A stretch of DNA of 64,000 nt from an uncultured Clostridia bacterium (lineage in GTDB: Bacteria; Bacillota; Clostridia; Christensenellales; Borkfalkiaceae): the NCBI GenBank assembly GCA_947629665.1, contig CANREJ010000002.1, positions 1 to 64,000 of the forward strand, written 5' to 3'. Under the pieces are notes generated by a model. That model ran no database searches. It was not told where the DNA came from and saw only the letters and a program-made list of their open reading frames with translations. A program made the translations under genes and the position numbers. Positions 42,713 to 47,636 of this stretch are shown here, one piece after another. Within the stretch, counting starts at the first letter, position 1, and every line of letters begins with the position of its first letter.

Positions 42713-42859
42713 AGCTGAATTATACCCCTTTTTCGGTTGATTTACAACAATTTGCGGGGCACGATAAAAAATAAACTTATGTTTGATTATAACAAATGCG
42801 CCAAATTTTGTCAATCGTGTATTAAATAAAGTTTACGCAACTGCCGCAAATAAATTTTC

Positions 42860-42888
42860 TTGACTTTTTTATATTATAATGATATATT
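42860..42888 (+). promoter_or_regulatory. Promoter of the structured leader
   Basis: TTGACT (42860-42865)-17 nt-TATATT (42883-42888); start expected within a few nt of 42894, the first base pair of the closing helix. Confidence 0.65.
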
Positions 42889-42893
42889 TTAAG

Positions 42894-43095
42894 TACCACA
42901 TTTCACAAACTGAATATCGGCGCGAATTTTTTGCGCTTTTTCTCACATGTTATTAATACGTATAACGGCAGTGTGTATCTCTGTTTCTGTAGCGTATTAA
43001 TATCTTGTGTAATTTTCGCGCATACAGTTTGTGAGGTGTGGTAACCGTTAGAGATACCGTGCGGTGTGCTCTTTCGGGGCACACCTTATTTTTTT
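42894..43095 (+). ncRNA. Unclassified structured leader RNA/attenuator or small RNA
   Basis: 19-bp P1 (42894-42912 / 43025-43043), P2 GCGCGAA/UUCGCGC (42920-42926 / 43015-43021), P3 15 of 17 pairs (42944-42960 / 42993-43009), terminator hairpin 43063-43085 plus TTATTTTTTT. Confidence 0.75.
43063..43095 (+). terminator. Intrinsic terminator directly upstream of the LRR lipoprotein RBS
   Basis: GGTGTGCTC-TTTCG-GGGCACACC followed by TTATTTTTTT. Confidence 0.85.
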
Positions 43096-43115
43096 ACCGC
43101 ACAAAAGGAGATACA

Positions 43116-46100
43116 ATGAAGAAAAAACTGTTGATTTTGTTATTGACTGTGGTTGCGGGTTTATGCTGTGCGCTATGCTTTGCGGGTTGCGGCGGAGAGG
43201 AAACGTCAAATGGCGGCAGCTCTTCGCTGGACGGTATTTACTACGTTTACCGCAACGAAAAACACGAAATGGATAATTGGATTAAAATTTCAGGCAGTAA
43301 TTGGGAAGATGACGACGGCGTTGGCGGAACATTGGAGCGCAACGGCAACAACCTTTCCTTTAACGGCACAGTTTTTGGAGAAACGGGTGAAATTTACAGC
43401 GGCACTTATGTTTCCGACGGCATTTTGAAAATTAAAGTTTTCGGTGCGGACATTTACTACTGTAAAGAGGACAAAACTCCGCCCGACGGCAATGTTCAAG
43501 GCGGCGGGAACCAAAACCAAGAACCCGCCCAAAAATATACCGTAACCTACAACGCCAACGGCGGAGAATTTGCGGATGGAGAAACATTTACGCAGGAAGT
43601 AAACGGAAACTCGCTTTTGACCGCTCCCACTCAACCCACGCGCGCAAGATACACATTCGGCGGTTGGGCAAAGGATAAAAACGGCAAAAATTTATGGCAA
43701 TTTGCAACGGATAAAGTTACGGAGAACATAACGCTTTTTGCAGTGTGGCAAGAGCCTTCCGCAAGTATTTTAAGCGTTGAGGGCGCAAGCATAGACGGCG
43801 ACGAAATTTTAATGATAGTTTCGCCCGAAACGGACAAGGTTTCACTTGCAAACAAAGTGATATGCAGTTCCGACAGCAGTTGGAAATTATATTTTGACAG
43901 CATGGGGCAAACGGAAATCCCCACAAGAATTGCCGCAAACTTAAACGGCTCGCTTTCCAACGGCGATAATGAGTTTTATATTGTTGTTACTTCGGCTAAC
44001 GCCTCGCAAGTAAACACCTATAAGCTCATAGTTCACAGGCAGTACACCGTAAACGTTATTTACTATGACAATAAAAACATTCCTCTAAAAACGGAAACGG
44101 CGCTTACGGGCGAAACGTACAACGTAACCTACACACCCGATATTACGGGCTATACCTTTAATTATTGGCAGGATAAAGACGGCAAGGAATATAAGTCAAA
44201 CGTACTATATTCGGGTTTGAACCTCTACGCCAACGCTACGGCTAAAACTTATAAAATAACCTTGAATGTCAACGGCGGCGAGCTTTCCACAACCGAAAAA
44301 ACGGTTACATATGATAAATCTTACAGCCTGCATAAACCCACAAAAACGGGGTATTCCTTCCTCGGCTGGGGAAATAGCAACGGAAATACTCTGTTTACGG
44401 ACAACAGCGGCGCGAGCCTTGAAAATTGGACGGGCACAAGCGATATAACGCTTTATGCAAAGTGGCAGGCAAATCAATACAAGGTTACTTTAAATAAGGA
44501 TTTAAGTACGGGCGGCTCGGTTTCCGGCGACGGCGACCACGCCTATGACAGTCAGGTAACCATAACCGCCAGCACGTACAGCGGCTATACTTGGCTCGGT
44601 TGGTATAAAGGAACAGAGCAAGTTTCCACCGAATATACTTATAGGTTCAAAATGGGCTTTGCCGTAACTTACACAGCGAAGTGGATAAAATGCCCTGTAA
44701 CCTTGGAAAGAAGCGATACTGCGGCAGGCACCGTTAGCGGAGTGGATAAAACCGTTCTCGGCGCGCAAACAACTATAACCGCTAATACTAATAAAGGCTA
44801 TACTTGGGTAGGTTGGTATAAGGGCGATGACCAACTCACCACCGAATTGACTTACACTTTTAAACTTGAAGAAACACCCGTAACTTATACGGCAAGGTGG
44901 ACGTATTACACTGTTACAACCAATACGACCATTGAAGATGCCGGCACTTATACAGAACAAAACGAAGTAAAAACTACCGCAGGCACTTCTGTTACTCTTA
45001 AAGCTACGACAAATAACGGTTATACTTGGGTTGGCTGGTATAACGATGAAACAGAATTGTCAACAGAGTTAAACTATACCTTTGATATGCCAAAGGAAAA
45101 CGTTACCTATACCGCAAAGTGGATAAAGGTAACATTGACAAAAGATTTAAGTGCAGGCGGAAGCATTACTTCATTAAATAAAGCATACAAAGCGGGTGAA
45201 AGCGTTACTATTACGGCAAACACATATAACGGTTATACCTGGGTTGGCTGGTATAATGATGATATAGAGCTAACTACCGATTTAAATTACACCTTTGATA
45301 TGCCGAAAGAAAACGTTACCTATACTGCAAAGTGGGCGTGTTACACTGTTACAACAAAGACCAATTATTCAAGTGCGGGAAGTTATACAAGTAAAAACGC
45401 TACTAAAACCACTGCTGGCACAACTGTTACTCTCCAAGCCACAACAAACAACGGTTACACTTGGGTCGGCTGGTATGATAATGAAACGGAATTGACAACA
45501 GAGTTAAATTATACCTTTGATATGCCAAAGGAAAACGTTACCTATACCGCAAAGTGGATAAAGGTAACATTGAAAAGCAATAACAATTCTGCCGGAACTG
45601 TTCCCTCCCTCGGTGAAAAGTATATCGCAGGTCAAAGCGTTACTGTTACGGCTACAACAAACAACGGTTATACTTGGGTCGGCTGGTATAACGATGACAC
45701 AGAATTAACAACAGAGTTAAATTATACCTTTGATATGCCAAAAGAAAATGTTACCTATACCGCAAGATGGATAAAGATAACATTGAAAAGCAATAATACT
45801 TCTGCCGGAACTGTTCCCTCCCTCGGTGAAAAGTATATCGCAGGTCAAAGCGTTACCGTAACAGCTTCTTCAAATATCGGTTACACCTTTATCGGTTGGT
45901 ATGACAAGAACAACCACGAACTTGCCACAACTCTTGAATATACATTTGAAATGCCTAAGGAAGACTCAACATATACGGCAAAGTGGGAAGTAAGTGATGA
46001 AATGAGTAATTTTGTATTTACTTCCACCAAAGAAATCTGCACTATAACAGGGTTAAAAAATAATGCAATAAATACCATTATAGTTCCCGACTATGTAACT

Positions 46101-47636
46101 TCTATCGGTGATAACGCTTTTAAGGATTGCTTCAACATTACAAATGTAACCATAGGTAAGGGCGTTAATTCCATCGGCGAAAACGCGTTTTATAATTGCT
46201 ATAAATTGGTTGAAGTTATAAATCTTTCCGAATTGTCCATTACCAAAGAAAAAAGTGAATACGGGTATGTTGCAAACTATGCGTTAGCCGTGGTAGATTC
46301 CGCCGAAAAAAGTAAAATAAAACAATCAGACGATTATGTATTTTACGAGGACGAAAATATAATTTATTTGTTAGGTGGTAAAGGGAACAATACAGCATTA
46401 CAATTACCGGTGCCGGAAAAGTTAAACGGAAAAAACTATGAAATTTATAAATACGCTTTTTATAAAAACGATAAAATAACCAAAGTTACCATACCCGACA
46501 GCGTTACATCTATCGGAGATTATGCGTTCGATGATTGCACAGGTCTTGAAAGCGTAACCATATCCGACAGCGTTACTTCTATCGGCATATATGCGTTCTC
46601 TGGTTGCAGAAGCCTTAAAAGCATAACCATAGGCAACGGCGTTACTTCTATCGATTGGTATGCGTTCTATGATTGCACGGCAGAAATAAAATGGGGTGAT
46701 AATCCTTCAATAAAAGAAATTGGTAAATATGCATTTTGTAGATATAATGGTGCAAGCATAACCATACCCGATAGTGTAACTTCTATCGGCGAGTATGCGT
46801 TCAAGGAGTGCACAAACCTTACAAGCATAACCTTACCCGTAAGTGTTACTTATATTGACAATGGTGCGTTCGCGTTTTGTACAAACCTTATAAGCATAAC
46901 CATACCCGACAGCGTAACTTCTATCGGCGAGTATGCGTTCTCTGGTTGCACAAAATTAATACAAACGGTAAGCGGCGTACAGTATGTAGATAAGTGGGTT
47001 GTAGATTGCGACAATTCCGTAACCAATGCTAATTTGAGGGCTAATACCAAAGGCATTGCAAAACATGCGTTCAGGGAGTGCACAAACCTTACAAGCGTAG
47101 CCATAGGTAACGGCGTTACGTCTATCGGCATGTATGCGTTCGAAAATTGCACAAGCCTTACAAGCGTAACTATACCCGACAGCGTAACTTCTATCGAACA
47201 GTATGCGTTCCGTAATTGCACAAGCCTTGAAAGCGTATATATAACAGATATTGCGGATTGGTGCAATATCGATTTTGGTAATTATGACGCTAACCCTTTG
47301 TATTATGCACATAAACTTTATTTGAACAATAATCTTGTAACGGAGATTACTGCCGATATGTTGCAAGGAGTAATCGCAATTAACGATTATGCGTTCCGTT
47401 ATTGCTACAGCCTTACAAGTATAACCATACCTAACAGCGTTACGTCTATCGGCTATAGGGCATTCTCCGATTGCACAAGTCTTGAAAGCGTAAAGTTTGA
47501 AAACACTTCGGGTTGGAAAGTTTTGTACGATAAGTCATCAAGCGGAACAAATGTAACTGTTACTAACGCTACGAAAAACGCAGAGCTTTTAACGAGTACC
47601 TATTACTATTATTATTGGCGTAGGTATGACGAGTAG
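43116..47636 (+). CDS. Giant surface lipoprotein: InlB B-repeat (Listeria/Bacteroides-type) domains followed by BspA-type leucine-rich repeats
   Basis: Start after AAAAGGAG; lipobox LCFAGC; several ~70-aa GYTWVGWYNDxxELTTELNYTFDMPKENVTYTAKW repeats; SVTSIGxYAFxxCTxLxSVTIPD repeats. Confidence 0.9.
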   Translation: MKKKLLILLLTVVAGLCCALCFAGCGGEETSNGGSSSLDGIYYVYRNEKHEMDNWIKISGSNWEDDDGVGGTLERNGNNLSFNGTVFGETGEIYSGTYVSDGILKIKVFGADIYYCKEDKTPPDGNVQGGGNQNQEPAQKYTVTYNANGGEFADGETFTQEVNGNSLLTAPTQPTRARYTFGGWAKDKNGKNLWQFATDKVTENITLFAVWQEPSASILSVEGASIDGDEILMIVSPETDKVSLANKVICSSDSSWKLYFDSMGQTEIPTRIAANLNGSLSNGDNEFYIVVTSANASQVNTYKLIVHRQYTVNVIYYDNKNIPLKTETALTGETYNVTYTPDITGYTFNYWQDKDGKEYKSNVLYSGLNLYANATAKTYKITLNVNGGELSTTEKTVTYDKSYSLHKPTKTGYSFLGWGNSNGNTLFTDNSGASLENWTGTSDITLYAKWQANQYKVTLNKDLSTGGSVSGDGDHAYDSQVTITASTYSGYTWLGWYKGTEQVSTEYTYRFKMGFAVTYTAKWIKCPVTLERSDTAAGTVSGVDKTVLGAQTTITANTNKGYTWVGWYKGDDQLTTELTYTFKLEETPVTYTARWTYYTVTTNTTIEDAGTYTEQNEVKTTAGTSVTLKATTNNGYTWVGWYNDETELSTELNYTFDMPKENVTYTAKWIKVTLTKDLSAGGSITSLNKAYKAGESVTITANTYNGYTWVGWYNDDIELTTDLNYTFDMPKENVTYTAKWACYTVTTKTNYSSAGSYTSKNATKTTAGTTVTLQATTNNGYTWVGWYDNETELTTELNYTFDMPKENVTYTAKWIKVTLKSNNNSAGTVPSLGEKYIAGQSVTVTATTNNGYTWVGWYNDDTELTTELNYTFDMPKENVTYTARWIKITLKSNNTSAGTVPSLGEKYIAGQSVTVTASSNIGYTFIGWYDKNNHELATTLEYTFEMPKEDSTYTAKWEVSDEMSNFVFTSTKEICTITGLKNNAINTIIVPDYVTSIGDNAFKDCFNITNVTIGKGVNSIGENAFYNCYKLVEVINLSELSITKEKSEYGYVANYALAVVDSAEKSKIKQSDDYVFYEDENIIYLLGGKGNNTALQLPVPEKLNGKNYEIYKYAFYKNDKITKVTIPDSVTSIGDYAFDDCTGLESVTISDSVTSIGIYAFSGCRSLKSITIGNGVTSIDWYAFYDCTAEIKWGDNPSIKEIGKYAFCRYNGASITIPDSVTSIGEYAFKECTNLTSITLPVSVTYIDNGAFAFCTNLISITIPDSVTSIGEYAFSGCTKLIQTVSGVQYVDKWVVDCDNSVTNANLRANTKGIAKHAFRECTNLTSVAIGNGVTSIGMYAFENCTSLTSVTIPDSVTSIEQYAFRNCTSLESVYITDIADWCNIDFGNYDANPLYYAHKLYLNNNLVTEITADMLQGVIAINDYAFRYCYSLTSITIPNSVTSIGYRAFSDCTSLESVKFENTSGWKVLYDKSSSGTNVTVTNATKNAELLTSTYYYYYWRRYDE
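44460..45990 (+). repeat. In-gene tandem repeats of ~70-71 codons (InlB B-repeats)
   Basis: Near-identical adjacent units, e.g. TGAAAAGCAATAA...CCCTCCCTCGGTGAAAAGTATATCGCAGGTCAAAGCGTTAC at 45571 and 45784 (213-bp period). Confidence 0.9.

Follow-up and report, generated by a model that had tools for sequence, protein, structure and literature searches.

What is the structured RNA encoded directly ahead of a giant surface-protein gene in an uncultured Clostridia bacterium, and how might it control that gene? The window analysed here, a stretch of 64,000 nucleotides, contains a 1506-residue open reading frame with BspA-type leucine-rich repeats (LRR), InlB-B/List_Bact repeats (Pfam matches PF13306, 1e-99; PF18998, 2.8e-71; PF09479, 2.1e-49) and a lipobox-like N-terminus. 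A preliminary description of the upstream region had proposed an unclassified structured leader with attenuator architecture, naming a stand-alone small RNA, possibly 6S-like, as the alternative. We find that the RNA is a 5' leader and not a stand-alone small RNA. As far as sequence comparison can tell, it belongs to a real, uncatalogued family of transcription-attenuating RNAs in Clostridia.

Anatomy of the leader

The elements of the leader are collected in Table 1. Inspection of the sequence and folding placed the promoter, the 19-bp helix P1, the inner helices, the terminator and the start codon exactly where the preliminary description had them. A consensus scan additionally found TG preceding the -10 element, and transcription is expected to start at approximately 42894-42895, the base of P1. 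Two of the 19 P1 pairs in this copy are G-U. The P1 domain (42894-43043, 150 nt) folds with a minimum free energy (MFE) of -57.6 kcal/mol, against -30.3 +/- 3.7 for dinucleotide shuffles (z -7.3, 0/200), and the whole leader (42890-43130) gives z -5.1 against shuffles. An intrinsic terminator lies between this structured RNA and the start codon, the arrangement expected of an attenuator, and its segment 43069-43077 doubles as the 3' strand of the putative antiterminator. On the opposite strand, a divergent uvrB-like gene has a perfect TTGACA-17-TATAAT promoter (42786-42814, minus strand).

Table 1. Features of the leader and its downstream gene, in window coordinates
Feature	Position	Strand	Basis
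Promoter: TTGACT (42860-42865), 17 nt, TATATT (42883-42888)	42860-42888	+	Sequence and consensus scan
P1 5' strand, UACCACAUUUCACAAACUG	42894-42912	+	Covariation, 57 non-redundant copies
P2 5' strand, GCGCGAA (partner 43015-43021)	42920-42926	+	MFE and centroid folds
Conserved GGCA motif, 5' of pseudoknot segment; GGYA-like in most relatives	42967-42970	+	Alignments, listings
Putative pseudoknot segment, GUAUCUCUG (partner 43049-43057)	42975-42983	+	Near-invariant in genus; class-wide coevolution
P2 3' strand, UUCGCGC	43015-43021	+	MFE and centroid folds
P1 3' strand, CAGUUUGUGAGGUGUGGUA	43025-43043	+	Folds and covariation
Putative switching linker, ACCGUUAGAGAUACCGUGC	43044-43062	+	Linker coevolution with both partners
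Putative antiterminator 5' strand, CCGUUAGAG (partner CUCUUUCGG, 43069-43077)	43045-43053	+	Coevolution
Intrinsic terminator hairpin	43063-43085	+	Consensus scan, folds
Terminator U-tract, TTATTTTTTT	43086-43095	+	Sequence
Shine-Dalgarno AAGGAG	43105-43110	+	Sequence; spacing repeated in many genus copies
BspA-type LRR/InlB-repeat surface lipoprotein, 1506 aa (ATG at 43116)	43116-47636	+	ORF, Pfam

The leader's designation as unclassified holds, since no Rfam family fits it or its relatives. Rfam 15 at the gathering threshold gave no match to the leader, and its matches elsewhere in the window were confined to RNase P and tRNA. The T-box, 6S and c-di-GMP models did not match, and at E<=10 the region 42840-43140 drew a spurious miRNA model only. 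Among the relatives scanned, one tRNA was the sole match. A term search of the literature and of structured-RNA surveys returned no recognisable description; the RNA may figure as an unnamed candidate in the supplementary lists of those surveys.

A recurrent element with a covarying helix

The window holds one copy of the element and its genome three, at C2 (the window), C75 and C76. A linker pattern matched 33 of 94 genus genomes, a few of them by chance, and filtering left 82 distinct genus copies, 57 of these non-redundant. All 82 have in common the promoter, P1, a GUAUCUCUU-like motif, the linker and the terminator, and in nearly all of them the -10 element lies 5-6 nt ahead of (T/C)ACCACA. 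The genus plan begins with TTGAC..TATA(A/T)T, followed at a near-fixed distance by (T/C)ACCACAT and a variable P1 arm; it continues with an internal ..GGCA.TGTGTATCTCTT motif, a P1 3' arm ending GGTGTGGTAACC, then AAGAGATAC and the terminator. A P2-like stem was recognised by eye in relatives. Some copies carry a second repeated hairpin (GACCACGTCATCTGAT..ATGCAGAGAACCTCTCTTAA, no Rfam match), which lies between the leader terminator and the start codon at L011, L023, L160 and L228 and trails copies in genomes G010, G020 and G447.

P1 covaries at every variable position. At positions 8-13 the copies form a mean of 5.65 Watson-Crick pairs, against 2.25 +/- 0.16 after arms are exchanged at random among copies (no more than 2.81 in any of 2000 shuffles of the 57 non-redundant copies), and most of these positions show three or four pair types. 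In an independent count on alignment A1, 98.2% of cells were paired and 8 pairs were altered on both sides, with a covariation score of 0.219 versus 0.066 for shuffled sequences (0/500). A U-G pair is fixed at position 6 in 57/57 copies and is present at the next position in 50/57; wobble pairs fixed in this way point to an RNA helix rather than a DNA inverted repeat.

The copies sit in the sense orientation just before genes, which identifies the RNA as a leader: for 74 of 76 testable genus copies and 75 of 84 class-wide copies, a gene on the same strand begins no more than 300 nt downstream, compared with divergent upstream gene starts at 18 of 53 and 33 of 82, respectively. The U-tract and the ATG are approximately 20 nt apart in most genus copies. 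Most downstream products of the genus copies have a signal peptide or lipobox, and of 160 downstream proteins, 118 looked secreted, lipid-anchored or membrane-bound and six began with a Zn ribbon, as tallied by a crude N-terminal rule. These genes share no common pathway; they encode lipoproteins, LRR and stalk-domain proteins, Zn-ribbon membrane proteins and small ORFs. Three copies (L048, L056, L231) precede small DUF378 membrane proteins; in these the terminator differs and the antiterminator is both shifted and weaker. In one distant genus, a small Cys-rich protein (..CPGNGENGNECCCDECNY.., no Pfam match) is often encoded 3' of the RNA (L318, L322, L326, L340, L347).

The linker pattern followed by filtering found no copies with the element's anatomy in the sampled other genera of the order; two strict-pattern matches outside the genus (G330, G397) were rejected, as both lack that anatomy. 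Covariance model R1 found the RNA in 90 of 251 family genomes (9 of 18 genera) and in 14 of 344 genomes of the class. A second model, R2, built from 36 sequences, found it in 5/5 genomes of one distant genus, with 5-14 matches each, and in 35 of 38 genomes of another family, with up to 21 matches per genome. R2 matched 0 of 330 other phylum genomes, a result that doubles as a false-positive control and was obtained with filters that lose weak matches in large genome sets. Tandem arrangements also occur, in which each unit has a separate promoter and terminator: L349, L367 and L344 consist of two complete units in series, approximately 45-50 nt apart, and the two units of L247 have some 480 nt between their starts. 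The plasmids searched gave no match. In viral contigs, 32 pattern matches were rejected for want of the element's anatomy and an f48-type pattern had no match; MT835845, a record labelled 'phage', contains a copy but probably represents a bacterial contig; its products include ClpB- and YicC-like proteins.

Alternative partners for the linker

The preliminary description had sought a competing structure in two pairings, both of which are present as written. The first, AGGTGTG in the P1 3' strand with CACACCT in the terminator 3' arm, is weak class-wide (z -2.9) and absent where P1 lacks GUGUG (e.g. L316, L318, L325). The second, GTGCGGT with ACCGCAC, is likewise weak (z -3.4 in the genus, -2.2 class-wide). 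The conserved competition appears instead to run through the linker 3' of P1, for which an internal segment of the GUAUCUCU type and the apical half of the terminator would compete.

In the antiterminator, CC..AAGAG of the linker is complementary to CUCUU..GG of the terminator. The two sides change together, as in CCUAAGAG/CUCUUAGG (L233), CCUUUUAGAG/CUUUAAAAGG (L260), CCUUUGAG/CUUAAAGG (L267) and CCUGAAGAG/CUCUCAGG (L191). Within the genus, linkers pair with their own terminators at -8.87 kcal/mol versus -7.62 for permuted partners (z ~ -6, 0/5000), and across 53 non-redundant class-wide copies the values are -12.6 and -7.3 kcal/mol (z -13.8, 0/5000). For the pseudoknot between linker and interior, the same 53 copies give -16.1 versus -11.3 kcal/mol permuted (z -12.3, 0/5000). 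Class-wide controls with reversed linkers reach only z -1.6 and -2.2. Clade structure by itself does not account for the signal, because permutation within clades still gives z -10.9 for the antiterminator and -9.7 for the pseudoknot. The pseudoknot strand hardly varies within the genus and yields no separate signal there; the pseudoknot covariation stems from copies in other clades. Where the linker additionally duplicates the 5' strand of the inner hairpin (UGCAUUUUU), as it does in two distant groups, forming the pseudoknot amounts to a strand exchange in that hairpin. In the window copy (L274) the antiterminator has 7 pairs and 2 mismatches (-9.4 kcal/mol), and AGAG of the linker is common to both pairings.

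Since both pairings draw on the same bases of the linker (GGAGA/AAGAG), they are mutually exclusive, presumably also in vivo, and would together form an attenuation switch. The coevolution of linker and terminator apex points to a conserved antiterminator that excludes the terminator, as an attenuator requires. It is thus highly probable that the window's leader is a cis-acting transcription attenuator whose linker chooses between pseudoknot and antiterminator. In the proposed model, RNA polymerase would initiate at the base of P1; the leader would fold through P1, P2 and P3, after which the linker would face its two exclusive partners. In the OFF state it would pair back with GUAUCUCU, leaving the terminator free and stopping transcription approximately 20 nt before the start codon. 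In the ON state it would pair with the apical half of the terminator, blocking the hairpin and allowing transcription of the lipoprotein gene. We infer this assignment of ON and OFF. When the leader is folded in isolation, the terminator is strongly preferred on thermodynamic grounds, and antitermination would therefore have to be kinetic.

Candidate signals and rival explanations

A domain conserved in sequence and fold is coupled here to an expression platform, as in riboswitches. The choice between pairings is most likely set by a cellular signal in the form of a small molecule, a predicted metabolite acting via the conserved P1/P3/pseudoknot domain, with a protein as the main rival. Attenuation can be stated with high confidence, the nature of the ligand with little. 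That the family is a widespread new class of Clostridia riboswitches, with a candidate global-signal ligand and a large regulon of secreted, surface and accessory proteins, is a reading that we advance tentatively, at somewhat short of an even chance. Proteins with DAC domains are found in nearly all genomes examined, so c-di-AMP stays a candidate. For c-di-GMP the case differs. In Clostridia, adhesins and surface proteins can be under the control of c-di-GMP-I/II riboswitches, and the window RNA likewise precedes a surface-protein gene; a variant of these riboswitches is nonetheless very improbable, as the leader has no such Rfam match and searches for GGDEF proteins came up empty in the window's genome and in at least 11 further RNA-carrying genus genomes, which effectively excludes this ligand in the genus. 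The same attenuator could instead be set by a trans-acting protein or RNA, which we consider unlikely yet well ahead of the other alternatives. Regulated genes without a shared pathway are what a global regulon would present, and many conserved positions sit in helices; set against this, the unpaired NAAUA after P1 and the GGYA loop are kept across families in the manner of an aptamer, and no candidate protein was found. ANTAR-responsive attenuators, e.g. EutV targets, also act by leader antitermination before scattered genes (PMC3369931), but the window RNA is not a dual hairpin in its anatomy, and ANTAR regulation is effectively excluded in the genus: only 3 of 94 genomes have an ANTAR protein, and none of these has a verified RNA copy.

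A stand-alone small RNA, 6S-like or other, would suit the strong promoter at the RNA's foot and the strong terminator, and terminated leaders may indeed be abundant; it is nevertheless highly improbable given the sense orientation just before genes, the distance of approximately 20 nt from U-tract to ATG in most genus copies, the coevolving antiterminator and the lack of a 6S match, and the alternative raised in the preliminary description is accordingly disfavoured. Attenuation by a ribosome translating a leader peptide would share the terminator/antiterminator logic, and one relative gives a sub-threshold Phe_leader match (E 0.05, 32.9 bits against a cut-off of 55). Shine-Dalgarno-led ORFs of at least 7 codons occur, however, in just 6 of 82 genus leaders and 12 of 87 class-wide leaders, making this explanation most improbable. 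Slighter still is the prospect of a DNA element (an invertible promoter, MITE or other repeat) with inverted repeats that resemble a helix. The repeat is long and its copies per genome are many, but the promoter lies outside it, its orientation relative to genes is single, its arms covary rather than keep one sequence, and the fixed U-G wobble of P1 would not persist in such DNA.

Returning to the attenuator, its mechanism is of a known kind; what appears to be new is the family itself, together with its abundance and envelope-protein regulon. T-box RNAs are also terminator/antiterminator leaders with many copies per genome, but the targets seen here are not aminoacyl-tRNA or amino-acid genes. 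In the ZTP (pfl) riboswitch a pseudoknotted domain competes with the terminator by internal strand displacement (PMC10085676). The window RNA resembles it as a 5' leader in which a pseudoknotted domain would compete with a terminator, and differs from it in sequence and fold, in having no Rfam match, in a linker that is predicted to pair with the terminator apex, and in occurring in many copies per genome before envelope-protein genes rather than serving one pathway.

The two coevolving alternative pairings provide a precise, directly testable model of the switch. A genome of gut Clostridia can hold up to approximately 20 copies of the RNA, most of them ahead of genes whose products are secreted, lipid-anchored or membrane-bound. 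The RNA appears to be among the more abundant uncatalogued cis-regulatory RNAs of these bacteria, with a regulon dominated by cell-envelope proteins. The identity of its ligand would show how these mostly uncultured bacteria choose the surface proteins that they display.
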